DNA from: Basidiobolus meristosporus CBS 931.73
Lineage: Eukaryota; Basidiobolomycota; Basidiobolomycetes; Basidiobolales; Basidiobolaceae
Reading direction: 5' to 3'
Length of the DNA: 64,000 bases
NCBI GenBank assembly: GCA_002104905.1
Contig: MCFE01000402.1
Location: 1 to 64,000, forward strand
Part shown: in pieces, positions 30,903 to 62,923 of the stretch
Position numbering within the stretch: the first letter of the stretch is position 1
Layout of the letters: each line of letters starts with the position of its first letter
Notes under the pieces: generated by a model
Told to the model about the DNA's origin: nothing
Database searches by the model: none
The model's input: only the letters and a program-made list of their open reading frames with translations
Made by a program: the position numbers and the translations under genes

Positions 30903-31378
30903 TTGAATCGCTTGTCCATAGTCTGCACGCTGTTGATGGTCACTTTGGCCAATGGAGATCACTTGCGGTTCACGAAGCCAGCTAGCAGTGGCCATATAGC
31001 TAGTACTTCAGTATCCAGCTACAACTTCAACCCGTTCCCTACTTAATGATAAACAAGGAGGTCGAGCTTGGTCACAAAAAAACAGAAGCACAGCTTCACC
31101 GCTTGAATTTTGGAACACTAATTCGGCGCTTGCTCTCACTGGAGCCTGCAGAGTTCCAATATGAATTTGGATTCAGGGACGCGAGATTTGTTCAGATGGA
31201 GCCTGGTGTAGCTGATCGGAAATATGATACCACTGGCGTTAAAGCACTAGACGATGACTCAGATTACTTCAGATAATGAGGATGAAGATGACGAGGACAC
31301 CAACCTAGAGGAGGCCGAGTTGTGGGGAAGGTTTGGCGGTCGTGGGCGATGGGACGTGGTAGATGGGGAAGATGGTAA
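30903..31378 (+). pseudogene. GRW family A0, broken copy
   Basis: First member of the array, clearly dead. The signal-peptide region is recognisable (VCTLLMVTLANGDH) but no in-frame Met precedes it. KFFKPA is changed to RFTKPASS. After NFNPFP the frame stops, the segment up to INKEVEL is deleted, and reading resumes as LHRLNFGTLIRRLLSLEPAEF. The acidic part (EDEDDEDTNLEEAELWGRFGG) is again in a different frame, and the tail is shortened to one or two GRGRW units before TAA. It is the most diverged A-type copy. Confidence 0.8.
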
Positions 31379-31805
31379 ACTACAGTGAACTTCACAATTT
31401 GCTCACAAGTCTGGATCATCACCAAGATTAGGCCTAATAAATGCCTAGAGCGATATGTGAAATGTAACATTAGCACTAACTGCTTTAATAAAGCCTACAA
31501 CAATTGTAAGACACTCAAATTCACTATCCTACCATTTCATAGCAATAATATACAGCTTTCAGCAAGGCCGCAAATGTTAAAGCAGTATTCACCTGCAGAT
31601 GACTGCCAAAGAATCACTTATCCCTACTATGCCTACTCATTAGGTAGTACTCTGGAGTTTTCTGGTAACAGAATAGCCACTTGCAACATTCAAAGGATCG
31701 TGAACTAATTCACTTTGCTGGCTACTTATTAGGCTACTCAAGCTTAGTGACCGATCTATATCCTATTTGTTGCGTTTATTATCCCAGCATTCTGATGACG
31801 GTGAG

Positions 31806-31878
31806 TATAATAAACCATATCTGAATTGAGTGAATTGAATGATAATGAGTCTAACTAAGCAATTCAACCAGAATAAAA
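31806..31878 (+). promoter_or_regulatory. promoter of GRW A1: TATAATAA, dyad, TATA box
   Basis: TATAATAAAC at 31806 is followed by an inverted repeat TGAATTG (31831-31837) / CAATTCA (31860-31866) enclosing GAGTCTAACTAA, and then the TATA element AATAAAAGCGC at 31872. The start codon is about 75 nt further on. The same arrangement recurs before A2, A5 and A6. Confidence 0.55.
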
Positions 31879-31948
31879 GCGCATCAAAGAGTCTCCAAAA
31901 ACTCAGACTTGAGCTCTCCAAAGCAACTACACCCAAAAGTACCCGAAG

Positions 31949-32515
31949 ATGTTTCCTAAAATTGCCATTGTCGGTTCGCTCTTGATGGCCACCCTGGCCT
32001 ATGGTGACCATTTGAAGTTCGTTAAGCCAGCAACCAGCAACAATGCAGCCATTGCCTCCGTGTCCAACCATGAATTCAACCCATTTTACAACACTGGTCG
32101 TGGCGTCCTTATTCCAAACTACCTGATCAATAGGGACATTGAACTTGCACCAGAAGAAATCCGTCGACGCCACCTGAATATTGGTGCATTGATTGATCGC
32201 TTACTCTCGCTGAAGACCTTGGGGTTCGCAAACGAGTTTGAGTTCAAGGGGGCAAGATTCATTGACTTGGAGCCAGCCCATGAGTTTGTCACCAAGAATA
32301 CCGACATGAAGTATGGCACTACAAGTGATGAAGCAGTGAACGACAACTCCGACATTACTTCAGATAATGAGGATGAAGATGACGAGGACACCAACCCAGA
32401 GGAAGCTGAGCTATGGGGAAGATTTGGTGGTCGTGGGCGCTGGAGACGTGGCAGATGGGGCCGTGGACGATGGGGACGCGGTCGCTGGGGACGTGGTAGA
32501 TGGGGAAGATGGTAG
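31949..32515 (+). CDS. GRW family A1, secreted Trp/Arg-repeat protein
   Basis: Intact single-exon gene, 188 aa, function unknown. Signal peptide about 1-17/19 (MFPKIAIVGSLLMATLAYG), then KFVKPATSNN, an N-terminal domain (FNPFYNTGRGVLIPNYLINR), the core LAPEEIRRRHLNIGALIDRL and LSLKTLGFANEFEFKGARF. An acidic stretch (SDNEDEDDEDTNPEEAELW) leads to the basic tail of RFGGRGRW, RRGRW and GRGRW units ending GRW. There is no cysteine in the mature part, no membrane span after the signal and no GPI-like end. It is unlike its neighbours A4-A7 in reading FYNTGRG for FHNTGHG. Its 5' spacer matches that of A6 and its 3' spacer that of A4. Confidence 0.88.
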   Translation: MFPKIAIVGSLLMATLAYGDHLKFVKPATSNNAAIASVSNHEFNPFYNTGRGVLIPNYLINRDIELAPEEIRRRHLNIGALIDRLLSLKTLGFANEFEFKGARFIDLEPAHEFVTKNTDMKYGTTSDEAVNDNSDITSDNEDEDDEDTNPEEAELWGRFGGRGRWRRGRWGRGRWGRGRWGRGRWGRW

Positions 32516-33150
32516 ACTGCAATATGCCGCATTCTTCGCTTCACTCACCGAGATACTTCCTGGGATGGCATCTGAAGAATACCTCAGTTGTATTTTCAAG
32601 TAATGATTGAACCGGTCATGCTAAATAAAGACTTCTCATCTATGCAACAGTTCCTTCATTTTGTTATCTGAATATTCTAACAGATGCTCTAGACAAGTTT
32701 GGCTACAACAACATGCCTCAATGTCAATTCCATGTGTATTGGTCAATGCGAAGCCTTCTTCCCCCATAATTGCCTCTAATGTCGTCATGATGAATATGCT
32801 ATAGCTAAAATGCCGACTTGCGAGTCAGGTACTAGCTATGTATCCTGCAGCTCTCTGGAGTTTCCAGCAGCAGAATAGTCACTTGCGGTATACAAATTTC
32901 CAAGAAATACATTCACTTAGCCGACTATATGTAGTCTACTCAAGCTTGACACCCGATCCATTTATTATTTGTTGTGTTAGTTACGTCGATGCTCCAAAGG
33001 CAATGAGTTTAATAAAGCATGCCTGGATTGGGTGAATTGAATGATGACGAGTCTAACTAAGCAATTCAACCAGAATAAAAGCGCATCAAAGAGTCTCCAA
33101 AAACTCAGACTTGAGCTCTCCAAAGCAACTACACCCAAAAGTACCCGAAG
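32516..33150 (+). repeat. array spacer B, left copy
   Basis: This spacer, including the AATAAA-containing 3' region of A1 and the promoter of A2, is nearly base-for-base the same as 50742-51375 between A4 and A5, about 18 kb away. The two differ at scattered single bases. Promoter dyad at 33033-33039 / 33062-33068. Confidence 0.85.
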
Positions 33151-33718
33151 ATGTTTCCTAAAATTGCCATTGTCGGTTCGCTCTTGATGGCCACCCTGGC
33201 CTATGGTGACCATTTGAAGTTCGTTCAAGCCAGCAACCAGCAACAATGCAGCCATTGCCTCCGTGTCCAACCATGAATTCAACCCATTTTACAACACTGG
33301 TCATGGCATCCTCATTCCAAACTACCTGATAAATCGAGAGGTTGAGCTCGCACCAGAAGAAATCCGTCGACGCCACCTGAATATTGGTGCATTGATTGAT
33401 CGCTTACTCTCGCTGAAGACCTTGGGGTTCGCAAACGAGTTTGAGTTCAAGGGGGCAAGATTCATTGACTTGGAACCAGCCCATGAGTTTGTCACCAAGA
33501 ACACCGACATGAAGTATGGCACTACAAGTGATGAAGCAGTGAATGACAACTCCGACATTACTTCTGATAATGAGAATGAAGATAGCGAGGACACCAACCC
33601 AGAGGAAGCTGAGCTATGGGGAAGATTTGGCGGTCGTGGGCGCTGGAGACGTGGCAGATGGGGCCGTGGACGATGGGGACGCGGTCGCTGGGGACGTGGT
33701 AGATGGGGAAGATGGTAG
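33151..33718 (+). pseudogene. GRW family A2, frameshifted copy
   Basis: Same layout as A1, but one extra base near 33226 (TTCGTTCAAG against TTCGTTAAG or TTCTTCAAG in other copies) shifts the frame just after the signal peptide; the shifted frame ends within about 20 codons. From 33263 the frame is open again through core, acidic block (NENEDSEDTNPEEAELW) and an undamaged GRGRW tail. The body has few other changes, so the break is recent or could be an assembly error. Without it the length would equal A1. Confidence 0.8.
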
Positions 33719-34765: not shown

Positions 34766-35405
34766 ATGCTTCTTAAACTATCCATTTTCTATTCCTTGTT
34801 GATGACCACTCTGGCTTATAGGGACCACTTGAGGTTCTTTGAGCCAGTCCGTAGTAACAATGCGGCCATTGCCTCCGTGTCTAGCCGTGCATTCGGACCA
34901 TTCTACTATACCGATCAAGGTGTAGTCTTACCCTACTTCATGCTGGGTGAAAATGTCGATATCATCCCAGAGGAGGCTCGAGTTCGTCGTCTGAAGGTAG
35001 GGAGCGTAATCAAGCGTTTGCCACACCGCAGGTACAAGAAAGTGCCTCGGAAGCATGGGCACAGGTATATCAAGAAGGCTGATGTGGAGCCAAATACTGA
35101 GCCTGCCACTAGTGAGAATGACGTTGGGCCTATATCGGAGCCTAAAGCTGGGAAGCCCATTGATGAGCCCGCTAAAGAACCGAAACAAGAGCTTGTAGAA
35201 GAGCCAGCCACTGGTGAGACAGATACTAAGACCACTGGCAACAATGAGGCTGTAAAAAACAACCCAGACATCGCATCTGATGAAGACAGCGAGAATGATG
35301 CTGACTCTGAGGAAGCCAAGCTCGGGTAGATGGGGCCGTGGAAGAGGAAGACGTGGCCGCTGGGGACGTGGTAGAAGAGGTCGTGGCAGATGGGGAAGAT
35401 GGTAA
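34766..35405 (+). pseudogene. GRW family B1, divergent, tail frameshifted
   Basis: Starts MLLKLSIFYSLLMTTLAYRDH. It has the B-type FYYTDQGVVLPYFML segment and the core IPEEARVRRLKVGSVIKR, followed by a shorter basic block (RRYKKVPRKHGHRY) and a unique Pro/Glu-rich insert (KPIDEPAKEPKQELVEEP). The open frame ends after 187 aa at 35329 (SEEAKLG). Two bases are missing at about 35324 relative to CTCTGGGGT in other copies, so the basic tail (with RGRRGR variants) lies in another frame up to TAA at 35405. It is intermediate between subfamilies A and B. Confidence 0.75.
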
Positions 35406-35941
35406 ATGTGAGGTGGATTCAATCGCATCCTCACAAACAACCTATCCACAAGATATGCTTATTCCTGCCGATCTTTACACAACAAATAAAATTTAGGAGC
35501 GATCATACCCAGCTTTGTTTCAACTTTGATTTATCACATGTGTTAATATGATTTTGAAAATGGTCGGTTAACGCTGGGCTAATAAACAGCATACCCACAC
35601 CTCACGCTCGAGATACCAATGAAAAATATACCTTCAAGTATCTAAACTATAAGTTATCTTGGGAGCGTTAACGGTTTTCAGGCAGTACTTGCAATTCATA
35701 TATGTAGCGGACACCAATTATACCGTCAGTGTCTTATGAGCTGTGGGCGCGTATCCAAGGGTGAGAATTCCATGATGCGAAAGAATTCGGAGTCGTGAGT
35801 ATAATATAATAGGGTTAAGCAATTATAAGTGGCTTAATGAGCTTAATTGGTTGTTAAAGGTTTGTTGTGTATAAGTATGCCGCCTAGGCACTCTCAACAA
35901 TCAGACTAGAGCTTCAAAAAGCCCACACTAGCTACTCGAAG
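35406..35941. other. array spacer, B1 to B2
   Basis: Carries a 3' AATAAA signal (ACAATAAATCAA-like in sister spacers) and the B2 promoter, with TATAATATAATAGGG near 35800. No gene. Confidence 0.5.
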
Positions 35942-36517
35942 ATGCTTTTCAAACCTTCCGTTCTTTGCTCGCTACTGATGGCCACTATGGCCTATGGAGA
36001 TCACGCAAAGTTCTTCAAGCCAGCTGCCAGTAATACTATGGCCGTCGCTTCCGTATCTGACCACGGATTCAGTCCAATCGGCTACACTGATCAAGGTGTC
36101 ATCTTCCCCTACTACATGCTGGATGAAGATATCGAGATTACCCCAGAGGAGGCTCAGCTTCGTCGTCTGAAGATCGGGAGCATGGTGAAGCGTGCATCCC
36201 ATCACAAGTCCAAGAAGGTGTACAAGAAGCATAGCAAGAAACACCACAAGAAGACCAAGCATAAGGTTGGAGAGAAGACCGATGTAGAGCCAATGACTGA
36301 GCCAACCACAGGTGAGGGCGATGTTGATGCTCCTGTCAATGATGAGGCAGCCGAGGATGACTTGGATATTGCAGCTGACGAAGACAACGAGGATGACACT
36401 GACCCTGAGGAAGCCGAGCTCTGGGGTCGCTGGGGCCGTGGAAGGTGGGGACGCGGTCGGTGGGACGAGGCGCTGGGGACGTGGGAGATGGGGCCGTGGC
36501 AGATGGGGACGTGGTAG
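35942..36517 (+). pseudogene. GRW family B2, scrambled tail
   Basis: Open frame of 191 aa. Signal peptide MLFKPSVLCSLLMATMAYG, AKFFKPAASN, YTDQGVIFPYYMLDEDIEI, core TPEEAQLRRLKIGSMVKR, Lys/His block (KKVYKKHSKKHHKKTKHK) and acidic block are all normal. In the tail two single-base losses (near 36464 and 36470) shift the frame after three repeats, so it ends DEALGTWEMGPWQMGTW in place of GRGRW repeats and stops at TAG. The protein could still be made and secreted with a non-basic tail. Confidence 0.75.
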
Positions 36518-37111: not shown

Positions 37112-37709
37112 ATGATTTTCAAGCCTTCAGTTCTTTGCTCGCTACTAATGGCCACCCTGGCCTATGGCGATCATGCGAAGTTCTTCAAGCCAGCTGCCAG
37201 TGGCAGTGTGGCCGTCGCTTCCATATCCAACCACGGATTCAGTCCAATCCGCTACACTGATCAAGGTGTCATCTTCCCCTACTACATGCTGGATGAAGAT
37301 ATCGAGATTACCCCAGGAGGAGGCTCAGCTTCGTCGTCTGAAGATCGGCAGCATGGTGAAGCGTGCACCCCATCATAAGTACAAGAAGGTGTACAAGAAG
37401 CATAGCAAGAAGCACCACAAGAAGACTGAGCATAAGGTTGGAGAGAAGACCGATGTGGAGCCAATGACTGAGCCATCCCACGGTGAGGGCGATGTCGATG
37501 CTCCTGTCAATGATGAGGCAGCCGAGGATGACTTGGATATTGCAGCTGACGAAGACAACGAGGATGACACTGACCCTGAGGAAGCCGAGCTCTGGGGTCG
37601 CTGGGGCCGTGGAAGGTGGGGACGCGGTCGGTGGGGACGTGGCCGCTGGGGACGTGGGAGATGGGGCCGTGGCAGATGGGGACGGGGTAGATGGGGAAGA
37701 AGATGGTAA
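37112..37709 (+). pseudogene. GRW family B3, frameshifted in the core
   Basis: Starts MIFKPSVLCSLLMATLAYG. An extra G near 37316 (CCAGGAGGAGG against CCAGAGGAGG) shifts the frame inside TPEEAQL and leads to an early stop at 37378. Downstream, the correct frame is again open through the Lys/His block, acidic block and seven GRGRW-type units to TAA at 37709, so this is a single recent lesion. Confidence 0.8.
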
Positions 37710-38294: not shown

Positions 38295-38897
38295 ATGATT
38301 TTCAAACCTTCCGTCCTTTGCTCGCTACTAATGGCCACACTGGCCTATGGTGATCATGCGAAGTTCTTCAAGCCAGCTGACAGTAGCAATATGGCTGTCG
38401 CTTCCGTGTCTGACCACGGATTCAGTCCAATCCGCTACACTGATCAAGGTGTCATCTTCCCCTACTACATGCTGGATGAAGACATCGAGATTACCCCAGA
38501 GGAGGCTCAGCTTCGTCGTCTGAAGATCGGGAGCATGGTGAAGCGTGCACCCCATCATAAGTACAAGAAGGTGTACAAGAAGCATAGCAAGAAGCACCAC
38601 AAGAAGACTGAGCATAAGGTTGGAGAGAAGACCGATGTAGAGCCAATGACTGAGCCAACCACAGGTGAGGGCGATGTCGATGCTCCTGTCAATGATGAGG
38701 CAGCCGAGGATGACTTGGATATTGCAGCTGACGAAGACAACGAGGATGACACTGACCCTGAGGAAGCCGAGCTCTGGGGTCGCTGGGGCCGTGGAAGGTG
38801 GGGACGCGGTCGGTGGGGACGTGGCCGCTGGGGACGTGGGAGATGGGGTCGGGCAGATGGGGCCGTGGCAGATGGGGAAGAAGATGGTAAATCCTAG
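38295..38897 (+). pseudogene. GRW family B4, tail switched to an acidic frame
   Basis: Frame of 200 aa, normal up to the tail (signal peptide, VKRAPHHKYKK, KKHSKKHHKKTEHK, acidic block, PEEAELW and five repeats). A single-base loss near 38850 (GGGGTCGGGCAG for GGGGTCGTGGCAG) then reads the repeat in another frame as ADGAVADGEEDGKS, which is acidic. A longer frame from 38202 exists, but that ATG lies in the TATA element, so the start is at 38295. Confidence 0.75.
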
Positions 38898-39505
38898 GTG
38901 GATTCAACCATATTCTCAATACCAAAGCAACAGCAAGACTTCTAGTTCATGTATTGATATGATTAGGCAGTGCGCATCCCAGCCAATCATCATACAATAA
39001 ATCAATTTTAGGAGTGATCATACCCGCTATTGTTTCATTTTCCCAATTTTAGGATTCATTTCATCCAGTATTGTTTCTTTTTCGATATGTCACACATGTT
39101 ATTTTGATCTGGAAAACTGGGGTGCCTTTTGACTAAAAAGCGGTTCAGCCTCTCCTCTCTTTCAAGATAACAATGCAAGGAGGGCTTTAAAGTGCCTAGT
39201 CTATGAGCTATCTAGAGTACACTACGAGAAGTGTCTGTCTGTGTTTATGATACATGTGACATGTACTGACTGAGCCAATGCTTCCTACGGTGTTTGCACA
39301 TGATCAAGAGTAAAATTTAACGGATGAAGAGTTTAATGTCGAAGAAGCAACATAATATAGTCAAGCCAATATAGGTAGCTCAAAGAGTAAAGTCTAATAT
39401 TGGAAAGCTCTTGTGCATAAAAGGGTCCAGTGCGCACCTTCAAGAATCATACTAGAGCTTTCCAAAGTAGCTGTAAACCACTCTAGCAACACCTACTACT
39501 CGAAG
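38898..39505 (+). repeat. array spacer type I (before B5)
   Basis: Different from type II: contains CCCAATTTTAGGATTCATTTCATCC, GGAGGGCTTTAAAGTGCC and the TATA region CATAAAAGGGTCC. The same spacer precedes B7 and B10. Confidence 0.75.
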
Positions 39506-40099
39506 ATGCTTTTCAAACCTTCCGTTCTTTGCTCGCTACTGCTGGCCACCCTAGCCTATGGAGATCACGCAAAGTTCTTCGAGCCAGCTGCCAGTAGCAA
39601 TATGGCCGTCGCTTCCGTGTCTGACTACGGATTCAGTCCAATCCGCTACACTGATCAAGGTGTCATCTTCCCCTACTACATGCTGGATGAAGACATCGAG
39701 ATTACCTCGGAGGAGGCTCAGCTTCGTCGTCTGAAGATCGGGAGCATGGTGAAGCGGGCGCCCCATCACAAGTCCAAGAAGGTCTACAAGAAGGTGACCA
39801 AGAAGCACCACAAGAAGCACCACAAGACGACCAAGCATAAGGTTGGAGAGAAGACCGATGTAGAGCCAATGACTGAGCCAACCACAGGTGAGGTAGATGT
39901 CGATGCTCCTGTCAATGATGAGGCAGCGGTGAATGACCCAGATGTTGCAACTGACGAAGACAACGAGGATGACACTGACCCTGAGGAAGCCGAGCTCTGG
40001 GGTCGCTGGGGCCGTGGAAGGTGGGGACGCGGTCGGTGGGGACGTGGCCGCTGGGGCCGTGGCAGATGGGGACGGGGTAGATGGGGAAGAAGATGGTAA
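39506..40099 (+). CDS. GRW family B5
   Basis: Intact, 197 aa. Signal peptide MLFKPSVLCSLLLATLAYG; KFFEPAASSN; core ITSEEAQLRRLKIGSMVKR (Ser for the usual Pro); Lys/His block KKVYKKVTKKHHKKHHKTTK with the KKHH unit twice; acidic block VNDPDVATDEDNEDDTD; then WGRW and five GRGRW units ending GRRW. A KR dibasic site before APHHK could be cut by a Kex2-type protease. Function unknown. Nearly identical over its length to B7 apart from the B7 frameshift. Confidence 0.88.
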   Translation: MLFKPSVLCSLLLATLAYGDHAKFFEPAASSNMAVASVSDYGFSPIRYTDQGVIFPYYMLDEDIEITSEEAQLRRLKIGSMVKRAPHHKSKKVYKKVTKKHHKKHHKTTKHKVGEKTDVEPMTEPTTGEVDVDAPVNDEAAVNDPDVATDEDNEDDTDPEEAELWGRWGRGRWGRGRWGRGRWGRGRWGRGRWGRRW

Positions 40100-40607
40100 A
40101 TCCTACGTGGATCCAACCATATCCTCAATACCAAAGCAACAGCAAGACTTCTAGTTCATGTATTGATATGATTAGGCAGTGCGCATCCCAGCCAATCATT
40201 ATACAATAAATCAATTTTAGGAGTGATCACACCCACTATTGTGTCATTTTAGATTTATCACACATGGTATCATGATATGAAAGAGATTGGGTTCCTCTGG
40301 GCTAATAAGGGCGTTTAGCGTTCTGGTCGGTCTCTAAGTGTAATATGTATTAGCAGTGGACACTGGTACTACTAATTTGGCTCATTGGACAGTGGGCCCA
40401 TATCCAAGAGTAAAACTTCAACGGGTGAAGAGTTTGAAGTCGAACAAGCAATATATTAATGTTGACTCAATATCTGTAGCTCCATGAGCTAAATCTAGTA
40501 TTGGAAGGGCTCTTATGCATAAAAATCGCGCTTTTGCTGTCTCGAGAATCATACTAGAGCTTTCCAAAGTCGCTGTAAACCACTCTAGCAACACCTGCCA
40601 CTCGAAG
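40100..40607 (+). repeat. array spacer type II (before B6)
   Basis: Shorter version with AAGGGCGTTTAGCGTTCTGGTCGG. Matches the spacer before B8 almost base for base. It has ATATTAATG in place of TATAATAAGG. Confidence 0.7.
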
Positions 40608-41264
40608 ATGATTTTCAAACCTTCCGTCCTTTACTCGCTACTGATGGCCACACTGGCCTATGGTGATCATGCGAAGTTCTTCAAGCCAGCTGCCAGTAGC
40701 AGTGTGGCCGTTGCTTCCGTATCTGACCACGGATTCAGTCCAATCCGCTACACTGATCAAGGTGTCGTCTTCCCCTACTACATGCTGGATGAAGATATCG
40801 AGATTACCCCAGAGGAGGCTCAGCTTCGTCGTCTGAAGATCGGGAGCATGGTGAAGCGTGCATCCCATCACGAGTCCAAGAAGGTGTACAAGAAGGTGAC
40901 CAAGAAGGTGACCAAGAAACATAGCAAGAAACACCACAAGAAGCACCATAAGAAGCACCACAAGAAACACCACAAGAAGACTAAGCATAAGGTTGGAGAG
41001 AAGACCGATGTGGAGCCAGTGACTGAGCCAACCCACGGTGAGGGTGATGTCGATGCTCCTGTCAATGATGAGGCAGCCGAGGATGACTTGGATATTGCAG
41101 CTGACGAAGACAACGAGGATGACACTGACCCTGAGGAAGCCGAGCTCTGGGGTCGCTGGGGCCGTGGAAGGTGGGGACGCGGTCGGTGGGGACGAGGCCG
41201 CTGGGGCCGTGGGAGATGGGGCCGTGGCAGATGGGGACGGGGTAGATGGGGAAGAAGATGGTAA
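40608..41264 (+). CDS. GRW family B6, longest Lys/His block
   Basis: Intact, 218 aa. Standard signal peptide (MIFKPSVLYSLLMATLAYG) and core. The Lys/His region is expanded: KKVTK is repeated and KKHH occurs four times in a row (about 40915-40985), giving a histatin-like stretch of roughly 40 residues that could bind metal or polyanions. Acidic block DDLDIAADEDNEDDTDPEEAELW and six GRGRW units follow. The extra length relative to B5 lies in this block and one extra tail repeat. Confidence 0.88.
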   Translation: MIFKPSVLYSLLMATLAYGDHAKFFKPAASSSVAVASVSDHGFSPIRYTDQGVVFPYYMLDEDIEITPEEAQLRRLKIGSMVKRASHHESKKVYKKVTKKVTKKHSKKHHKKHHKKHHKKHHKKTKHKVGEKTDVEPVTEPTHGEGDVDAPVNDEAAEDDLDIAADEDNEDDTDPEEAELWGRWGRGRWGRGRWGRGRWGRGRWGRGRWGRGRWGRRW

Positions 41265-41879
41265 ATCCTAGGTGGCTCCCACCACATCCTCAATACCGAA
41301 GCAACAGCAAGACTTCTAGTTCATGTATTGATATGATTAGGCAGTGCGCATCCCAGCCAATCATTATACAATAAATCAATTTTAGGAGTGATCATACCCG
41401 CTATTGTTTCATTTTCCCAATTTTAGGATTCATTTCATCCAGTATTGCTTCTTTTTCGATATGTCACACATGGTATTTTGATCTGGAAAACTGGGGTGCC
41501 TTTTGACTAAAAAGCGGTTCAGCCTCTCCTCTCTTTCAAGATAACAATGCAAGGAGGGCTTTAAAGTGCCTAGTCTATGAGCTATCTAGAGTACACTAAG
41601 AGAAGTGTCTGTCTGTGTTTATGATACATGTGACATGTACTGACTGAGCCAATGCTTCCTACGGTGTTTGCACATGATCAAGAGTAAAATTTAACGGGTG
41701 AAGAGTTTGATGTCGAAGAAGCAACATAATATAGTCAAGCCAATATAGGTAGCTCAAAGAGTAAAGTCTAATATTGGAAAGCTCTTGTGCATAAAAGGGT
41801 CCAGTGCGCACCTTCAAGAATCATACTAGAGCTTTCCAAAGTAGCTGTAAACCACTCTAGCAACACCTACTACTCGAAG
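41265..41879 (+). repeat. array spacer type I (before B7)
   Basis: Second copy of the type I spacer, offset by about 2.37 kb from the copy before B5. With B5-B6 it shows a two-gene tandem unit. Confidence 0.75.
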
Positions 41880-42542
41880 ATGCTTTTCAAACCTTCCGTC
41901 CTTTACTCTCTACTGATGGCCACACTGGCCTATGGAGATCATGCGAAGTTCTTCAAGCAAGCTGCCAGTAGCAATATGGCCGTCGCTTCCGTGTCTGACT
42001 ACGGATTCAGTCCAATCCGCTACACTGATCAAGGTGTCATCTTCCCCTACTACATGCTGGATGAAGACATCGAGATTACTCCAGAGGAGGCTCAACTTCG
42101 TCGTCTGAAGATCGGGAGCATGGTGAAGCGGGCGCCCCATCACAAGTCCAAGAAGGTCTACAAGAAGGTGACCAAGAAGCATAGCAAGAAGCACCACAAG
42201 ACGACCAAGCATAAGGTTGGAGAGAAGACCGATGTAGAGCCAATGACTGAGCCAACCACAGGTGAGGGCGATGTCGATGCTTCTGTCAATGATGAGGCAG
42301 CCGAGGATGACTTGGATATTGCAGCTGACGAAGACAACGAGGATGACACTGACCCTGAGGAAGCCGAGCTCTGGGGTCGCTGGGGCCGTGGAAGGTGGGG
42401 ACGCGGTCGGTGGGGACGTGGCCGCTGGGGACGTGGGAGATGGGCCGTGGCAGATGGGGACGGGGTAGATGGGGAAGAAGATGGTAAATCCATAGTGGAT
42501 CCAACCATATTCTCAATACCAAAGCAACAGCAAGACTTCTAG
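41880..42542 (+). pseudogene. GRW family B7, tail switched to an acidic frame
   Basis: Frame of 220 aa. Normal to the fourth tail unit; then one G is missing near 42443 (AGATGGGCCG for AGATGGGGCCG), so the rest of the repeat reads AVADGDGVDGEEDGKS and runs through the usual stop into the 3' region, ending PKQQQDF. The body is otherwise undamaged (KQAASSN for KPAASSN is a private change). The product would carry a half-basic, half-acidic tail. Confidence 0.75.
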
Positions 42543-42996
42543 TTCATGTATTGATATGATTAGGCAGTGCGCATCCCAGCCAATCATTATACAATAAATC
42601 AATTTTAGGAGTGATCGCATCCACTATTGTTTCATTTTAGATTTATCACACATGGTATCATGATATGAAAGAGATTGGGTTCCTCTGGGCTAATAAGGGC
42701 GTTTAGCGTTCTGGTCGGTCTCTAAGTATAATATGTATTAGCAGTGGACACTTTGTACTACTAATTTAGCTCATTGGACAGTGGGCCCATATCCAAGAGT
42801 AAAACTTCAACGGGTGAAGAGTTTGAAGTCGAACAAGCAATATATTAATGTTGACTCAATATCTGTAGCTCCATGAGCTAAATCTAGTATTGGAAGGGCT
42901 CTTATGCATAAAAATAGCGCTTTTGCTGTCTCGAGAATCATACTAGAGCTTTCCAAAGTCGCTGTAAACCACTCTAGCAACACCTGCCACTCGAAG
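42543..42996 (+). repeat. array spacer type II (before B8)
   Basis: Near-identical to the spacer before B6, including ATATTAATGTTGACTC and the TATA element CATAAAAATAG at about 42907. Confidence 0.7.
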
Positions 42997-43653
42997 ATGA
43001 TTTTCAAACCTTCCGTCCTTTACTCGCTACTGATGGCCACACTGGCCTATGGAGATCATGCGAAGTTCTTCAAGCCAGCTGACAGTAGCAATATGGCTGT
43101 CGCTTCCGTGTCTGACCATGGATTCAGTCCAATCCGCTACACTGATCAAGGTGTCATCTTCCCCTACTACATGCTGGATGAAGATATCGAGATTACCCCA
43201 GAGGAGGCTCAGCTTCGTCGTCTGAAGATCGGGAGCATGGTGAAGCGTGCACCCCATCAGGAGTCCAAGAAGGTGTACAAGAAGGTGTACAAGAAGGTGA
43301 CCAAGAAGGTGACCAAGAAACATAGCAAGAAACACCACAAGAAGCACCACAAGAAACACCACAAGGAGACTAAGCATAAGGTTGGAGAGAAGACCGATGT
43401 GGAGCCAGTGACTGAGCCAACCCACGGTGAGGGTGATGTCGATGCTCCTGTCAATGATGAGGCAGCCGAGGATGACTTGGATATTGCAGCTGACGAGGAC
43501 AACGAGGATGACACTGACCCTGAGGAAGCCGAGCTCTGGGGTCGCTGGGGCCGTGGAAGGTGGGGACGCGGTCGGTGGGGACGTGGCCGCTGGGGACGTG
43601 GGAGATGGGGCCGTGGCAGATGGGGACGGGGTAGATGGGGAAGAAGATGGTAA
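42997..43653 (+). CDS. GRW family B8
   Basis: Intact, 218 aa, sister of B6. The Lys/His block is arranged differently: KKVYK twice, KKVTK twice and KKHH three times, then KETKHK, so total length is kept while the units differ. It reads APHQESKK where most copies have APHHK. Six GRGRW units and GRRW end. Acidic block as in B6. Confidence 0.88.
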   Translation: MIFKPSVLYSLLMATLAYGDHAKFFKPADSSNMAVASVSDHGFSPIRYTDQGVIFPYYMLDEDIEITPEEAQLRRLKIGSMVKRAPHQESKKVYKKVYKKVTKKVTKKHSKKHHKKHHKKHHKETKHKVGEKTDVEPVTEPTHGEGDVDAPVNDEAAEDDLDIAADEDNEDDTDPEEAELWGRWGRGRWGRGRWGRGRWGRGRWGRGRWGRGRWGRRW

Positions 43654-44238
43654 ACCCTTGGTGGCTCCCACCACATCCTCAATACCGAAGCAACAGCAAG
43701 ACTTCTAATTCATGTATTGATATGATTAGGCAGTGCTCATTCCAGCCAATCATCATACAATAAATCAATTTTAGGAGTGATCACACCCACTGTTTTTTCG
43801 ATTTAGATTTATCACACATGGTATCATGATATGAAAAAGATTGGGTACCTCTGGACTAAAAAGCAGCCTACCCACATCTTGCTCACGAGATATTGATGAA
43901 AGAAGTATAATCGTAAGGCTAGTAGTCAAGCATTCTTAAGGGCGTTTACCGTTCTGGTCGGTTTCTGAGTGTAATCTGTATAAGCAGTGGACACTGGTAC
44001 TACTAATTAGGCTTATTAGGCTGTGGGCGCATATCCCAGAGTAAGACTTCAACGGTTAAAAAGTTTGAAGTCGAACAAGCAATATAATAAGGCCGAATCA
44101 ATATAGGAAGCTCCATGAGCCAAATATAGTATTGGAGGGGCTCTTATGCATAAAAACAGCGCTTTTGCTATCTCGAGAATCATACTAGAGCTTTCCAAAG
44201 TAGCTGTAAACCACTCTAGCAACACCTACAACTCGAAG
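43654..44238 (+). repeat. array spacer type II (before B9)
   Basis: Contains TATAATAAGG near 44083 and CATAAAAACAG at about 44149. No gene. Confidence 0.65.
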
Positions 44239-46589: not shown

Positions 46590-47186
46590 ATGCTTTTCAA
46601 ACCTTCCGTCCTTTACTCGCTACTGCTGGCCACCCTGGCCTATGGAGATCATACGAAGTTCTTCAAGCCAGCTGACAGTAGCATTATGGCCGTCGCTTCC
46701 GTGTCTGACCACGGATTCAGTCCAATCCGCTACACTGATCAAGGTGTCATCTTCCCCTACTACATGCTGGATGAAGACATCGAGATTACCCCAGAGGAGG
46801 CTCAGCTTCGTCGTCTGAAGATCGGGAGCATGGTGAAGCGTGCACCCCATCACAAGTACAAGAAGGTGACCAAGAAACATAGCAAGAAGCACCACAAGAA
46901 GACTGAGCATAAGGTTGGAGAGAAGACCGATGTGGAGCCAATGACTGAGCCAACCCACGGTGAGGGCGATGTCGATGCTCCTGTCAATGATGAGGCAGCG
47001 GTGGATGACCCAGATGTTGCAACTGACGAAGACAACGAGGATGACACTGACCCTGAGGAAGCCGAGCTCTGGGGTCGCTGGGGCCGTGGAAGGTGGGGAC
47101 GCGGTCGGTGGGGACGAGGCCGCTGGGGACGTGGGAGATGGGGCCGTGGCAGATGGGGACGGGGTAGATGGGGAAGAAGATGGTAA
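46590..47186 (+). CDS. GRW family B11
   Basis: Intact, 198 aa. Signal peptide MLFKPSVLYSLLLATLAYG; TKFFKPADSSIM; short Lys/His block; acidic block VDDPDVATDEDNEDD as in B5. Six GRGRW units and GRRW end. A long leader frame (MSYIYSWG...) exists upstream but runs through the TATA element and is not taken as coding. Confidence 0.87.
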   Translation: MLFKPSVLYSLLLATLAYGDHTKFFKPADSSIMAVASVSDHGFSPIRYTDQGVIFPYYMLDEDIEITPEEAQLRRLKIGSMVKRAPHHKYKKVTKKHSKKHHKKTEHKVGEKTDVEPMTEPTHGEGDVDAPVNDEAAVDDPDVATDEDNEDDTDPEEAELWGRWGRGRWGRGRWGRGRWGRGRWGRGRWGRGRWGRRW

Positions 47187-50171: not shown

Positions 50172-50741
50172 ATGATGTTTCTCAAGTCTTCCGTTTTCTC
50201 CTCGTTCCTAATGGTCACTTTAGCTTACGGGGACCGTTCAATATTCTTCAAGCCAGCGACCAGCAACAATGCGGCCATTGCCTCCGTGTCCAACCGCGAA
50301 TTCAACCCATTCCACAACACTGGCCATGGCATCCTCATTCCAAACTACCTGATAAATCGAGAGGTTGAGCTCGCACCAGAAGAAATCCGTCGACGCCACC
50401 TGAATATTGGTGCATTGGTTGATCGCTTACTCTCGCTGAAGACCTTGGGGTTCGCAAACGAGTTTGAGTTCAAGAGGGCGAGATTCATTGACTTGGAGCC
50501 AGCCCATGAATTTGTCACCAAGAACACCGACATGAAGTATGGCACTACAAGTGATGAAGCAGTGAATGACAACTCCGACATTACTTCTGATAATGAGGAT
50601 GAAGATGACGAGGACACCAACCCAGAGGAAGCTGAGCTATGGGGAAGATTTGGTGGTCGTAGACGTTGGGGGCGTGGCAGATGGGGTCGCGGAAGGTGGG
50701 GACGCGGTCGCTGGGGACGTGGAAGATGGGGAAGATGGTAG
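50172..50741 (+). CDS. GRW family A4
   Basis: Intact, 189 aa. Signal peptide is distinct (MMFLKSSVFSSFLMVTLAYG), followed by RSIFFKPATSNN. From NREFNPFHNTGHG onward it is nearly the same as A5 and A6, so the divergence is limited to the N-terminus and promoter. Acidic block DNEDEDDEDTNPEEAELW; tail RFGGRRRW then GRGRW units ending GRW. Confidence 0.87.
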   Translation: MMFLKSSVFSSFLMVTLAYGDRSIFFKPATSNNAAIASVSNREFNPFHNTGHGILIPNYLINREVELAPEEIRRRHLNIGALVDRLLSLKTLGFANEFEFKRARFIDLEPAHEFVTKNTDMKYGTTSDEAVNDNSDITSDNEDEDDEDTNPEEAELWGRFGGRRRWGRGRWGRGRWGRGRWGRGRWGRW

Positions 50742-52512: not shown

Positions 52513-53079
52513 ATGTTTCCTAAAATTGCCATTGTCGGTTCGCTCTTGATGGCCACCCTGGCCTATGGTGACCATTTGAAGTTCGTTAAGCCAGCAACCA
52601 GCAACAATGCAGCCATTGCCTCCGTGTCCAACCACGAATTCAACCCATTCCACAACACTGGCCATGGCATCCTCATTCCAAACTACCTGATAAATCGAGA
52701 GGTTGAGCTCGCACCAGAAGAAATCCGTCGACGCCACCTGAATATTGGTGCATTGATTGATCGCTTACTCTCGCTGAAGACCTTGGGGTTCGCAAACGAG
52801 TTTGAGTTCAAGAGGGCGAGATTCATTGACTTGGAGCCAGCCCATGAGTTTGTCACCAAGAACACCGACATGAAGTATGGCACTACAAGTGATGAAGCAG
52901 TGAACGACAACTCTGACATGACTTCTGACAATGTGGATGAAGATGACGAGGACACCAACCCAGAGGAAGCTGAGCTATGGGGAAGATTTGGTGGTCGTAG
53001 ACGTTGGGGACGTGGCAGATGGGGTCGCGGAAGGTGGGGACGCGGTCGCTGGGGACGTGGTAGATGGGGAAGATGGTAG
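52513..53079 (+). CDS. GRW family A6
   Basis: Intact, 188 aa. The 5' part follows A1 (HLKFVKPATSNN) and the 3' part follows A5 (FKRARF, DNVDEDD, RRRW tail), a mosaic that suggests gene conversion. Tail of five units ending GRW. After the stop the flank changes to a type seen also after A2. Confidence 0.88.
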   Translation: MFPKIAIVGSLLMATLAYGDHLKFVKPATSNNAAIASVSNHEFNPFHNTGHGILIPNYLINREVELAPEEIRRRHLNIGALIDRLLSLKTLGFANEFEFKRARFIDLEPAHEFVTKNTDMKYGTTSDEAVNDNSDMTSDNVDEDDEDTNPEEAELWGRFGGRRRWGRGRWGRGRWGRGRWGRGRWGRW

Positions 53080-53710
53080 ACTGCAATGTGCTTCGTTCTT
53101 TGCCCCAATGGTGCAAACAATTTCTTGGATGGCAGCTAAAGAACGCCTGTGTTATATTTTCAAGCAAAGATTGATCCAGTTGTACTAAATAAAGACTATT
53201 CATCAACGCAACAGTACAATCATTGTTATTTGAAGATTTCAATAAATGTTCTTGATATAAAAGACACCTCAATGGTAACTCGATATACAATATTCAACAT
53301 AAGACCTTTCTCCTTATGAGTACCTTAAATGCTATAGTAATATATATGTGACTACAAAGCCTATCCGTGAAACTACAAAAAATTTACTCTCCCGGTTGTA
53401 CTCCAAGATTTACCAGCAGCTCAACGTTTGCTTGCGACATTTAAATGACTGAGATATCGATGCATTTACCTGATTACTCGTTTGTCTACTCAATCTTGGT
53501 ATTCAATCTATTTCTTACTTCCTGTGCTTACTTTCCCTACGCCTTGAATACGATGAGTATAATAAGGCATATATGAGTTGAGAGAGCTGACTGATAACGA
53601 GTCTAACTAATCAAATCAGTCAGAATAAAAGCACACCAAAGAGTCTCAAAAAATTCAGATTTGAGCTCTCGAAAGCAAGTGCAAGTACCTCAACTGACAA
53701 GTTACTAAGA
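53080..53710. other. array spacer, A6 to A7
   Basis: No gene. Promoter of A7 with TATAATAAGG near 53558, a 9-bp inverted repeat CTGACTGAT (53587-53595) / ATCAGTCAG (53615-53623) around GAGTCTAACTAA, and AATAAAAGCAC at 53624. Confidence 0.6.
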
Positions 53711-54277
53711 ATGTTTCCTAATATTTCTATTGCCTGCACAATACTGATGGCCACCCTGGCCTATGGCGACCATTTTAAGTTCTTCAAGCCAGCGACCAGC
53801 AACAATGCGGCTATTGCCTCCGTGTCCAACCACGGATTCAACCCATTCCACAACACTGGCCATGGCATCCTCATTCCTAACTACCTGATCAATAGAGAGA
53901 TTGAACTCGCACCAGAAGAAGTCCGCCTGCGTCGCTTGAATATTGGTGCATTGATTGATCGCTTACTCTCGCTGAAGACCTTGGGGTTCCCGGATGAATT
54001 TGAGTTCAAGGGGGTAAGATTCATTGACTTGGAGCCAGCCCATGAGTTTGTCACCAAGAACACCGACATGAAGTATGGCACTACAAGTGACGAGGCAGTG
54101 AATGACAACTCCGACATTACTTCAGATAATGAGGATGAAGATGACGAGGACACCAACCCAGAGGAAGCTGAGCTATGGGGAAGATTTGGCGGTCGTAGAC
54201 GTTGGGGGCGTGGCAGATGGGGTCGCGGAAGGTGGGGACGCGGTCGCTGGGGACGTGGTAGATGGGGGAGATGGTAG
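53711..54277 (+). CDS. GRW family A7
   Basis: Intact, 188 aa. Signal peptide MFPNISIACTILMATLAYG is the most changed of the A type after A4. Core EEVRLRRLNIGALIDRL follows A3/A8, while LEPAHEFVTKNTDMKYG follows A4-A6: another mosaic. Acidic block and RRRW-type tail as in A4. Confidence 0.88.
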   Translation: MFPNISIACTILMATLAYGDHFKFFKPATSNNAAIASVSNHGFNPFHNTGHGILIPNYLINREIELAPEEVRLRRLNIGALIDRLLSLKTLGFPDEFEFKGVRFIDLEPAHEFVTKNTDMKYGTTSDEAVNDNSDITSDNEDEDDEDTNPEEAELWGRFGGRRRWGRGRWGRGRWGRGRWGRGRWGRW

Positions 54278-54480
54278 ACTACAATGTGCCGCATTCTTAG
54301 CTCCAATGGTGGAAACACTTCGTGGGATAGCAGCCAAAGAACATTTATGCTCTATTTTCAAGTAAAGATTGTACCGGTCACACTAAATAAAGACATCCCA
54401 ATTACGCAATAGTACAATCACTGTTATTTGAATACTTTGGCATATGCTATCGGCATGGCTAGCTATAAAAATGCACACCA

Positions 54481-54675
54481 ATGCTTAGAACACCGCAAGC
54501 CAATGCAGATACAAGATCAGAGCGAAATGGGGATTCTACAGCAATTGAGGAGGAGGAGGCCGATTCTGGGGCAAAGTGCTTACAAAATTCCGCCAAGATT
54601 GACCGTGGCCACAAGTATCGTAGTGTCAGAGGGTATAAACGTGGGCATGGACATAAACACGGGAACAGGACATAG
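54481..54675 (+). pseudogene. possible GRW-like relic
   Basis: A short frame with an acidic run (STAIEEEEADSGAK) followed by a basic Arg/His/Gly/Lys end (RGHKYRSVRGYKRGHGHKHG). The order of charges resembles a family tail, but there is no GRGRW unit, signal peptide or core. It may be a very old remnant or chance. Confidence 0.25.
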
Positions 54676-55841
54676 GTAGAGACGCAGACATGAACACAAA
54701 TGCGGGCAACGGTAGGAGTATGAGTATGAGTATAAGTATGAGCTCAGTCAATAATGATAAATCACCTCCCTTATCGTGAGTGAAAGTAAAGCTGAATTTA
54801 TCAACGACCTTCAATTGCCCCACCGGTAAGTACAGCAAATGCAAATGTCGATTTTCACTCTACAATAAACTGCATTCAGCTGTGACCACTCCATTTGTTT
54901 AAAAAGATTGGGAGAAAACAGAATGGAATTGTTGCGAATTGGCTAAATTTCTGGGTGCTGTTTTAAAATGCATCACCGTATGCAACATTGACCAATATAA
55001 TACAGCGTTCCTCAACACAACTCTAAGATATTGACCAACTTTCAAATCCAAAGAGTGCAATAATTATTTTCATTAGTAAACAATATTTGCCGGTGTAAAC
55101 AAGGTAGCTATAGATATTCACGTAGAGATTGTGAAACCACTGGCGAATTCTGCAATAATGGTATTAACATCGCCAACAAAATTTGTTTCCAAACTCCAAG
55201 TGATTATTTGTTGAGACAGAATGGAATATATTTTTCGATTCATATCAATGTTGCAAATTCATTTCATCGAAATGGAATGCTCAAAATACCACAGCACTGT
55301 GGCAAGGGTCTATGTGCGATATGTCGACTCCAATTTATGATTGTTTGAATTGGAGTTATGAGATATAGGATTAGCCAATTCCTCAAATATGAGATGAAAA
55401 ATAGATACAATATACTACTATGTGCATCCTTACAAAGACCGAGTTACCGTAATACAAAAGACTTTTCAACAAGCTTTACAAATATTGATATTGCTTGATG
55501 GGGCGCATAGTATGTGGCCAAAACATTATCCGCACGTCCGATGAATAAGGATCCAAACGGGATCATCATTACTGGGAAAGCATAGCCGACATTCAAATAA
55601 TTGCAAACCCCCTCTACATACCAGAGCTCCTACTGTACTACTCGGCTTAGAGATATAATTCCTGTCGTTTTAGCAAACGAGAAAGTTAAATAAACAATAA
55701 GTGAGGTAGGTCGAAGTATAATAAACTAAGAGTGTAAAAGCCAACTACCAATGAGTCTAAATAAGCGATTCGTTTGAGATAAAAGCGCACAAAGTAACCT
55801 CCAGAAAGTCAGTAGTAAACAGCTCCAACAAATAACCAAAG
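54676..55841. other. long intergenic region, A7 to A8
   Basis: About 1.2 kb, AT-rich, no gene. A short AGTATGAGTATGAG repeat lies near 54716. The A8 promoter at the right end has TATAATAAACTAAG (55718), GAGTCTAAATAAG (55753) and GATAAAAGCGC (55778). Confidence 0.5.
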
Positions 55842-56411
55842 ATGTTTCCTAAACTCTCCTTTGTCTGCTCGCTCTTGATGGCCACCCTGACACATGGTGA
55901 CCATACGAAGTTCTTCAAGCCAGCCGCCAGCAACAGTGCGGCTATTGCTTCCGTGTCCAACCACGAATTCAACCCATTCCATAACACTGGCCATGGCGTC
56001 CTCATTCCTAACTACCTGATCAATAGGGAGATTGAACTCGCACCAGAAGAAGTCCGCCTGCGTCGCTTGAATATTGGTGCATTGATTGATCGCTTACTCT
56101 CGCTGAAGACCTTGGGGTTCCCGGATGAGTCCGAGCTCAAGGGTGCAAGATTCATTAGCTTCGAGCCAACCGGTATATTTGCCACAGGCGAGACTGGCAT
56201 GAAATATGGCACTACCAGTGATGAGGCAGTTGAAGATAACCCCGATATTACCGCTGATGATGAGGATGGGGATGAAGATGCCACTGACCCAGAGGAGGCC
56301 GAGCTATGGAGAAGATTTGGTGGCCGTGGACGTTGGGGACGAGGCAGATGGGGTCGCGGACGGTGGGGACGTGGTAGAAGGGGCAGATGGGGAAGATGGG
56401 GTAGATGGTAG
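55842..56411 (+). CDS. GRW family A8
   Basis: Intact, 189 aa. Signal peptide MFPKLSFVCSLLMATLTHG, TKFFKPAASNSA. The middle follows A3 (ISFEPTGIFATGETG), the core is EEVRLRRLNIGALIDRL, and the acidic block is DDEDGDEDATDPEEAELW. The tail is rearranged: RRFGGRGRW, GRGRW, GRGRRGRW, then GRWGRW, i.e. shorter spacing at the end. Confidence 0.87.
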   Translation: MFPKLSFVCSLLMATLTHGDHTKFFKPAASNSAAIASVSNHEFNPFHNTGHGVLIPNYLINREIELAPEEVRLRRLNIGALIDRLLSLKTLGFPDESELKGARFISFEPTGIFATGETGMKYGTTSDEAVEDNPDITADDEDGDEDATDPEEAELWRRFGGRGRWGRGRWGRGRWGRGRRGRWGRWGRW

Positions 56412-57406
56412 GTTTTGGTAAAGAGGCACTGCTGCGAACTTGGCCAATATAAAAGTAGGGCTGACAAAGGAGCATTATAGTTCCCTATAAACAGTATCGA
56501 TGTATTCTATGGCCGAATTCGTTCCATACCTTCTGAATAAATGTGCTTGCCGCAAATATAGGCAGTGTAACAATCATATTTCATGGATTTTCCATTTCTC
56601 AGTAGCAGATATGGGCGTACGCATCATTTTGGCAATGACAAGGTAGCTCAACTTCCAACTGGTGATGAAGAAGCTTGATTGAAAGTTAAGCAATATGTTG
56701 AGTCTCCTGTCAACAGCAATGAAGCTACAGGTGATAACACTGGTAGTACTAGATAACCTTCAATATACTGTGTTCTGCTCCACTTGTAAGAAGGGATGGA
56801 TGTGATAGGCTCTGGCGGGCTTGACAGGAGAGCAATTCAAACGTATATCAAGCGTCAGCCATATCGTCACGAAGCGGTCAGATGAAAGAGTGACTATGTT
56901 TCTAAATGGCTCAATTTATGAATGTTGTTTCAAAATGTATCACCGTATAAGATTCTAAGAGATTGAAAAGTTTCCAAACCCAAGGAGTGCTAAGGTTACT
57001 ATTACCGTATAGGGTACAAAACAAAGACCCTTGGTTGTGACAATGGGATTACTCCACCTCTTGTTTCTTATACGACCCACTTCGAAAGTAAAATAAACAA
57101 CAGTGTGAGGATCCATACTACACCATCGATCTCCTTCAGAGTGCGATAAAGCATTGAACAACGGAGCGACAGTGTTGGTCAAGCATACATTTTCAATCGC
57201 CAATGGGCATTATTGATGGCATAGTTGATATTTTCGGTTATTTCACACGAGTGCTCATTGCAGTATGGAGCACGGTACTTTATTCAATCTACAAAAGTCT
57301 ATTTTACAGAAGAGAGGCTAGATAGATTGATGGAGTTGAAAGAAACAACTATAAAAGAGCAAGCCACTTGCACTCTGGCTAATCAGTAAATCAGTCCTCT
57401 TCGAAT
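56412..57406. other. intergenic with a possible family relic
   Basis: About 1 kb. Near 56697-56757 a frame reads VESPVNSNEATGDNTGSTR and then a stop, faintly like the DAPVNDEAAEDD segment of B copies; too short to be sure. The C1 promoter has TATAAAAG at 57350-57357. Confidence 0.4.
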
Positions 57407-57961
57407 ATGCTTCATAAATTCACCATCGTTTGCGCTCTCTTAATGGCCACCATGGCTTATGGCGACCACCTTCAACCTGTTAACCCAGCTGTTGGGAGTA
57501 GCGTGGTTAGTGCCGTGGCATCATCCCGTACGGACTCTAGCCCATTTCTCTACAAAGGGAGATATTTCGAGCTAGATAACATGCTCGAAATCACGCCTGA
57601 GGAAGCCCAATTGCGCCGCCTGAAAATGAAAAAAATCCAGAAAAGTAAGCACATCGTCAAACACAAGAAAAAGAAGTACAAAGGCATCACCCGCTTTGCT
57701 CGCCCGGATGAGCCGATGACTGAGGACATTGGGCCTGAAATGGGTGTCTTCAACGACGAGGCTGCTGATGACGATGCTGACAACGACGACAATGCAGAGG
57801 AGACCGAACTCTGGCGCAGATTTGGCCGATTTGGAAGATTTGGTCACTTTCGCCCATACAGAAGATTTGGCCCTTTCCGCAGATATGGTCGATTCAGAAG
57901 ATTTGGGCCTTTCCGAAGATTTGGACCCTTTAGACGTTACGGTAGATTTTATCGCTGGTAA
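57407..57961 (+). CDS. GRW family C1, Phe/Arg/Tyr tail variant
   Basis: Intact, 184 aa, the only member of its type. Signal peptide MLHKFTIVCALLMATMAYG and the core ITPEEAQLRRLKMKKIQK place it in the family. The N-terminal domain is different (SSRTDSSPFLYKGRYFELD). A Lys-rich block (KHIVKHKKKKYKG) and an acidic block (DDDADNDDNAEETELW) keep the same order. The tail then replaces GRGRW by RRFG.F/RRYGRF units (RFGPFRRYGRF, RFGPFRRFGPF) and ends FYRW. The aromatic-plus-Arg pattern is kept while Trp and Gly are largely lost. It has about 50 nt between TATA and ATG and lies at the right border of the array. Confidence 0.85.
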   Translation: MLHKFTIVCALLMATMAYGDHLQPVNPAVGSSVVSAVASSRTDSSPFLYKGRYFELDNMLEITPEEAQLRRLKMKKIQKSKHIVKHKKKKYKGITRFARPDEPMTEDIGPEMGVFNDEAADDDADNDDNAEETELWRRFGRFGRFGHFRPYRRFGPFRRYGRFRRFGPFRRFGPFRRYGRFYRW

Positions 57962-58235
57962 CTGAGATTGTTGGTGAATGTATGGAGGTTTCGACGAATG
58001 GCACTGGCCTTTGCCCAAGATTCTTCCAATAAATGATATCAAATATCCATACATCACTATTGGCTGATTCTTATATGAATGCCCGCTGCTGAGGTGGGTT
58101 AGTGGGATGTCCTTGGCTGTACCGCTCGCACTATGCTGTCCCCAACTGGGTGCAATGGGTTTCATATTATGTACTAGAAGACACATTTCATCTGCAACAA
58201 GCATAGATCTGGCAACAGATAGTTTATAAAAGCGT

Positions 58236-62896: not shown

Positions 62897-62923
62897 TTGA
62901 CGTACCTTTTGAAAGTACGTCAA
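62897..62923. repeat. 9-bp inverted repeat around a CRE-like half site
   Basis: TTGACGTAC and GTACGTCAA are perfect inverted copies separated by 9 nt. Each arm contains TGACGT, the half site of bZIP (CREB/ATF-type) factors. It lies at the 5' edge of the GID7 open frame. Confidence 0.45.

Follow-up and report, generated by a model that had tools for sequence, protein, structure and literature searches.

The window analysed here comprises bases 1–64000 of contig MCFE01000402.1 (C650) from the 89.0-Mb assembly (GCA_002104905.1, 1311 contigs) of the fungus Basidiobolus meristosporus CBS 931.73. At 30903–57961 it carries a tandem array of genes encoding small proteins with a hydrophobic N-terminus and a C-terminal tail typically built of GRGRW units. 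A first-pass annotation of this DNA had counted about 22 copies, some 14 of them intact, in a single orientation and without introns. Reading each locus individually gave 22 loci, all on the plus strand and spaced by 1.05–2.13 kb, 14 of which are open from ATG to stop with an in-frame tail. The copies are single-frame, in agreement with the intronless claim, and a search for inverted array copies returned no minus-strand match at E 1e-10. Four further loci (34766, 35942, 38295 and 41880) also keep an uninterrupted frame between ATG and a stop, but their tail is lost or shifted; two (33153 and 37112) show a mid-gene break and two (30903 and 48923) lack an ATG at the expected position. Since several array tails break within G-rich runs, assembly error is a possible cause of the shifted frames.

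The array has a nested layout, in which a left type-B block (one intact copy, two broken) is followed by a middle block of 11 type-A copies (7 intact) with one diverged A-like copy, a right type-B block of six loci (five intact) and a single type-C gene at the end. The individual features are as follows.

30903..31376 (right end approximate), plus strand: copy 1, B-like and broken, lacking an ATG and interrupted by a stop after 47 codons
31949..32515, plus strand: copy 2, type B, intact, 188 aa
33153..33718, plus strand: copy 3, type B, reading frame lost behind the putative signal peptide
34766..35406 (right end approximate), plus strand: copy 4, diverged A-like, open 34766–35329, stop before tail
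35942..36517, plus strand: copy 5, type A, tail frame shifted
37112..37709, plus strand: copy 6, type A, mid-gene frame break
38295..38897, plus strand: copy 7, type A, tail frame shifted
39506..40099, plus strand: copy 8, type A, intact, 197 aa
40608..41264, plus strand: copy 9, type A, intact, 218 aa, carries the longest HHKK insert
41880..42542, plus strand: copy 10, type A, tail frame shifted
42997..43653, plus strand: copy 11, type A, intact, 218 aa
44239..44835, plus strand: copy 12, type A, intact, 198 aa
45409..46005, plus strand: copy 13, type A, intact, 198 aa, tail of 37 aa with charge +15
46590..47186, plus strand: copy 14, type A, intact, 198 aa
47771..48352, plus strand: copy 15, type A, intact, 193 aa
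48923..49477, plus strand: copy 16, type B, frame open to the end of the tail, ATG missing from its usual position
50172..50741, plus strand: copy 17, type B, intact, 189 aa
51376..51942, plus strand: copy 18, type B, intact, 188 aa
52513..53079, plus strand: copy 19, type B, intact, 188 aa
53711..54277, plus strand: copy 20, type B, intact, 188 aa
55842..56411, plus strand: copy 21, type B, intact, 189 aa, with ELWRR at the junction
57407..57961, plus strand: copy 22, type C, intact, 184 aa, tail units RRFGPF/RRYGRF, GRGRW absent
38577..43804, plus strand: duplicated stretch of about two array units (38577–41414 versus 40950–43804, 95.8% over 2857 bp)

Visual inspection of all six frames revealed no recognisable copy in the 1.56-kb gap at 54280–55840. 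Where the minus strand shows open frames opposite the tails, we interpret them as mirror images of the G/R-rich repeat. Two GRGRW units, written as a degenerate DNA pattern, matched 75 times in the 89-Mb genome, always forward (64 on C650, 11 on contig C184); the same pattern read backward had no match genome-wide, so that the forward matches are far beyond chance. Candidate TATA-like motifs were noticed upstream by eye. The public gene model K493DRAFT_357305 (P0001) sits at copy 6 and omits its broken mid-gene stretch.

The single plan originally proposed for all copies in fact takes in two main types, and the gene at 57407 has no GRGRW. Type A (35.9–48.4 kb) combines an H/K-rich insert with PEEAQLRRLKIG, in place of which one intact copy has SEEAQLRRLKIG; the insert follows a conserved V-K-R and varies in its number of HHKK units. 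Type B (30.9–33.7 and 48.9–56.4 kb) is characterised by PEEVRLRRLNIG or PEEIRRRHLNIG without an H/K insert. Over the first 481 coding bases, DNA identity is 90–96% among type-A copies, 56–64% between A and B, 49–54% between C and all others, and 49–68% between the diverged copy 4 and other copies.

Besides the duplicated stretch listed above, a second block duplication links 32018–33717 with 50244–51941 (95.7%). The first 10 kb of the 14.9-kb contig C184 match window 52582–60596 (99.3% over 8030 bp, C184 bases 1971–10000) and 48273–50902 (95.1%), with the intervening stretch skipped, so that C184 appears to be short of two array units. The gene at C184:1899–2468 (P0003) is a hybrid that starts like copy 50172 and continues like 51376/52513. 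Together, the hybrid gene and the skipped stretch form the pattern expected from unequal crossing-over. Judged from the sequence, a copy-number difference between haplotypes is possible; C184 may be allelic to the array, belong to a second locus or stem from the assembly.

The array-type proteins share a plan of hydrophobic N-terminus, variable pro-region, acidic stretch, a junction of the form E-E-x-(E/Q)-L-W-x-R, and tail. A hydrophobic stretch (Kyte-Doolittle value of at least 1.83) lies within the first 25 residues of 19/19 proteins and is the protein maximum in 18/19. By hydropathy the N-termini are thus of the secreted type, in line with the signal peptide claimed by the first-pass annotation, and the signal peptide is putative. 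We assembled two protein sets, A1 with 14 proteins of five types and A2, which adds B. ranarum proteins to give 17. The motif E-E-x-E-L-W-x-R is invariant in 14/14 members of A1, while identity to the first member is 30–45% outside the type designated Y. An AlphaFold2 model of a type-A protein built on 17 aligned sequences reached a mean predicted local distance difference test (pLDDT) value of 48.9, with weak helices at residues 6–17 and 68–83. Because this low value rests on only 17 aligned sequences, a disordered pro-region is suggested and no more.

The tails of the 13 intact A/B copies are 32–37 aa long, contain 13–15 Arg and 6–8 Trp and carry a net charge of +13 to +15. They consist to 97–100% of G/R/W/F, with one Phe in type B and one Ala in 47771, and more than one third of their residues are Gly. 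The last 35 residues of the pro-region mirror this charge with -14 to -18. Similar pairs of acidic and tail charge were obtained for type C (-15/+18 at 57407, -16/+17 on contig C25), for P0004 (-9/+7), for the B. ranarum protein P0006 (-11/+12) and for 15 Y proteins of 139 or 149 aa (-6 to -11 against +7 to +9). The B. ranarum protein P0008 is excluded from these values, as the script picked an upstream motif as its junction.

The strongest selective constraint was observed in the tail of every group tested. Ratios of nonsynonymous to synonymous change (dN/dS), pooled from pairwise Nei-Gojobori estimates in which pairs are non-independent, were 0.20 (signal), 0.22 (pro-region), 0.33 (acidic stretch) and 0.03 (tail) for seven type-A copies, and 0.26, 0.28, 0.15 and 0.08, respectively, for six type-B copies. 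Four 139-aa Y genes gave 0.59 (signal), 0.34 (pro-region) and 0.06 (tail), and eleven 149-aa Y genes 0.56, 0.23 and 0.08. The segment that had been regarded as a core domain behaves like a pro-region, and the lowest values belong to the tail. In the 13 intact A/B copies, 62 GRGRW units are spelled by 24 DNA versions with a proportion of synonymous differences (pS) of 0.71; as these units differ silently, it is the peptide that is kept and not the DNA repeat. Tail pS (0.245 in A, 0.295 in B) exceeds that of the N-terminal part of the pro-region (0.181 and 0.217), so that gene conversion alone is insufficient to explain tail conservation, with the reservation that repeat slippage may inflate pS. 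In the 149-aa Y genes, the tail reaches half the pS of the pro-region (0.077 versus 0.151), and conversion may contribute there. Variable codon columns are silent/replacement 12/1 in the tail and 38/34 in the rest of type A, and 14/4 and 34/56 in type B (Fisher p 0.012 and 0.0033, respectively, uncorrected).

The array is not an isolated feature: it belongs to a superfamily with other tails that comprises more than 100 matched loci in the assembly, fragments and possible alleles counted. Copy 13 (45409) served as query for the genome search and for the first protein-database search; match counts in the genome are lower bounds, and certain contigs may be allelic to one another. A type-Y query gave 127 genome matches. 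Leaving out 27 rows on C650, C184, C792, C870 and C25 and merging rows less than 300 bp apart, the remaining 100 rows correspond to 93 loci on 17 contigs, fragments included, in a single orientation on 16 of the 17. Of the 100 rows, 47 span the query from residue 3 or earlier to 139, 39 of them without a stop. Type-Y proteins are mostly 139 or 149 aa long and have a Gly/Tyr/Arg tail with a C-D-W-G-C ending; contigs with Y expansions include C1207, C966, C390, C136, C1065, C584, C640, C1123 and C356. Relatives of type C were found on C184, C25 and C870, and a type D on C792, C34 and C702.

From the searches made, the array appears to be one branch of a superfamily restricted to Basidiobolus. 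An A1 profile compared with 5.8 billion proteins yielded 15 matches (10 named B. meristosporus, one window-encoded, three B. ranarum, one metagenomic), in a search of limited sensitivity that scored only the 7994 candidates sharing most words. The metagenomic match, a Tyr/Gly repeat (E 2.3e-3), was judged spurious; apart from it, no relative outside Basidiobolus was found in three protein searches of limited sensitivity. The B. ranarum relatives keep the pro-region and end in Y/D/R (P0006), G/R/F (P0011) or a Lys/Gly stretch with Cys (P0008). In the last protein (K7432_017454) the superfamily pro-region continues into a Lys/Gly linker and then a Cys-rich end; its gene model, taken from a 2.1-kb contig, may be erroneous. 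A search with P0008 (E up to 1, 295 candidates) recovered no other protein, its 30 matches in the B. meristosporus genome all lie within residues 1–161 and leave the Cys-rich end unmatched, and its structure predicted alone has a mean pLDDT of 40.0.

No named family accounts for these proteins. All 14 A1 members, scanned singly, remained below the Pfam cut-offs; the nearest family, Phosphodiest, was a partial match in 38295 with 21.8 bits against a cut-off of 23 (E 1.7e-4). NCBIfam gave no match above its cut-off with the 14 members scanned together and 10 of the 14 singly (best 15.7 bits versus 1400), and a profile search of PDB sequences gave none at E up to 1. UstYa/DUF3328 (PF11807), a marker of the cyclised branch of Kex2-processed repeat proteins, had no genome match, with control genomes likewise silent, so that the result speaks neither for nor against a UstYa-cyclised RiPP. 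The first-pass designation as undescribed stands insofar as no named family was found and the openly licensed literature, supplements aside, yielded no published description; the best database matches of the array proteins are, on the other hand, already catalogued as K493DRAFT 'hypothetical proteins' of B. meristosporus CBS 931.73, a strain for which RNA-seq is on record (PMC7466969).

Secretion, cleavage and antimicrobial action are what we infer from the sequences for the array proteins, whose genes, in our tentatively favoured reading (probability about 40%), encode prepropeptides in which an acidic stretch masks a cationic antimicrobial effector tail. The putative signal peptide would route the protein into the secretory pathway, and the acidic last 35 pro residues, ending at the junction, would neutralise the 32–37-residue Gly/Arg/Trp tail. 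This tail would be the active part, released at or near the junction; with its charge of +13 to +15 and 6–8 regularly spaced Trp it may bind or disturb microbial membranes or other anionic surfaces, by analogy with Trp/Arg-rich antimicrobial peptides (AMPs). In type A, the His/Lys-rich stretch after the conserved V-K-R could provide a second cationic piece, and growth of the array by unequal crossing-over would raise the dose. Pro-region and tail look like separate modules. A prepropeptide ending in a cationic effector is consistent with the exchange of modules from one species to the other, the conservation of the junction, the mirrored charges and the tail as the most constrained part. The genome also contains matches to the kexin-type P-domain.

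Trp/Arg-rich AMPs such as indolicidin and tritrpticin, which derive from cathelicidin precursors, share with the array proteins a precursor with a C-terminal cationic Trp/Arg-rich stretch. They differ in that no sequence kinship was found and in that the array tail is a strict GRGRW repeat with over a third Gly and a higher charge. Nematode NLP/CNC peptides are Gly/Tyr-rich defence peptides encoded by clustered secreted genes, and the type-Y tails (GRYGGYGG) resemble them in composition. AMPs are usually 8–50 residues long with a general charge of +2 to +9, according to PMC6017362; composition and length of the A/B tails fit its Trp-rich class, and the Y tail charge falls inside that range.

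Several observations weigh against this reading. The A/B tail charge lies above the AMP range just cited (PMC6017362). Most junctions read W-G-R and contain no dibasic kexin site, W-R-R being found in 55842 and type C. The junction itself is less uniform beyond A1, as 9 of 16 intact Y frames, which come from 14 stretches, have Q in the position of the third E, the W is replaced by Y or R in P0006/P0011 and the motif is absent from P0008 (set A2). The charge mirror is poor in P0011 (-8 versus +16) and depends on the chosen 35-residue cut, the entire pro-region carrying -4 to -17 in A/B, a wide range that reflects the basic insert of type A. Among paralogues the tails are conserved and show no diversification. 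Finally, a coacervating polyampholyte would suit the charge balance just as well.

The closest competitor to the prepropeptide reading assumes uncut secreted polyampholytes, in which Arg and aromatic stickers, Gly spacers and the acidic stretch would form a coacervate that serves as adhesive, slime or wall layer, for example at capilloconidia tips; we regard this as possible, at lower odds. Its position rests on the same charge mirror, module structure and tail constraint, together with two published observations: designed peptides ordered WGRGRGRGW (WGR-1 and two variants) form droplets (PMC12954654), and capilloconidia bear sticky, adhesive tips (PMC10964425). The designed peptides have a near-identical sticker-spacer order, W-G-R-G-R, and differ in being synthetic, single, short and without an acidic partner stretch (PMC12954654). 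The retained Gly, Arg and aromatic make-up, with W, Y and F swapping between types, and the many co-oriented copies, which suit bulk production, are also in favour, whereas the conserved junction and the module swap resemble a processing boundary. Motifs rich in glycine and arginine (GAR/RGG) likewise combine RG repeats with aromatic spacers; the example given in PMC9957100, fibrillarin, is nucleolar, unlike the array proteins with their signal-like N-terminus. An extended form of this idea, that Basidiobolus evolved a secreted sticker-and-spacer material with a built-in acidic counter-block, encoded by a very large family of genes, phase-separating extracellularly as an adhesive or antimicrobial slime and representing a natural counterpart of the WGR peptides, seems to us rather unlikely as a whole.

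Rather improbable is a repeat precursor cut by kexin- or trypsin-like proteases into many short signalling peptides resembling pheromones or hormones. RR precedes most short tail units in type C and in B. ranarum P0006, and the P-domain matches are also in its favour. CBS 931.73 is reported to have 43 Kex2-processed repeat proteins (KEPs), the most among 1461 strains; KEPs are recognised by three or more tandem repeats, each of 8 aa or longer, that lie between KR/KK/RK/RR sites (Umemura 2020, PMC7329392). KEPs resemble the array proteins in their fungal origin, secreted-type N-terminus, tandem repeats and occurrence in this same record-holding strain (PMC7329392). A script proxy of the rule, however, found three similar fragments of at least 8 aa between dibasic sites in 0 of 19 proteins, and the reported Basidiobolus KEP type S-3 is Tyr/Asp-rich, unlike A/B (PMC7329392). 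The array proteins were thus set aside as KEPs by this proxy, and other members of the superfamily may overlap with the 43. The GRGRW and Y tails hold 0–2 dibasic sites, and no amidating enzyme was recognised, with the limit that an intron-split enzyme could be missed. The only copper-monooxygenase locus found (C868:111800-112400), judged on one 73-aa piece, resembles dopamine beta-hydroxylase (E 2e-7) over an amidating enzyme (0.16), and an amidated RW-peptide was provisionally set aside on this ground.

We consider it similarly improbable that the proteins are secreted factors, binding surfaces or nucleic acids, aimed at an animal or insect host instead of microbes. A multicopy family with secreted-type N-termini, confined to the genus in our searches, in a fungus described as gut-associated (PMC10964425) would suit such a role, but strong purifying selection on the tail in all tested groups gives no sign of an arms race. 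An array grown by unequal crossing-over with most copies of little or no function, as 8 broken copies among 22, the block duplications and the two units apparently missing from C184 might suggest, is very improbable in view of dN/dS below 1 in every tested region (0.03–0.33 in A/B, 0.06–0.59 in Y).

A Pfam scan of 10 open frames covering part of the flanks revealed TPR and LisH/CTLH domains in three, among them exons of ordinary genes with LisH/CTLH (WDR26-like) and TPR at window positions 62897-63873 and 18088-18456, respectively; a protease or modifying enzyme may still lie close to the array. Three tRNA genes (Thr, Arg, Arg) are located on the minus strand at 5699–9361.

The array belongs to a gene family, seen in a single early-diverging fungal genus, that has expanded to more than 100 matched loci, fragments and possible alleles counted, and whose simple tail is under very strong selection. 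The strongly cationic Trp/Arg-rich tail is probably released as an antimicrobial or sticky peptide. If the tails are defence peptides, they would constitute a large ribosomal antimicrobial arsenal in a fungus living among gut bacteria; if they form coacervates, Basidiobolus would possess a natural, genetically encoded W/G/R adhesive.

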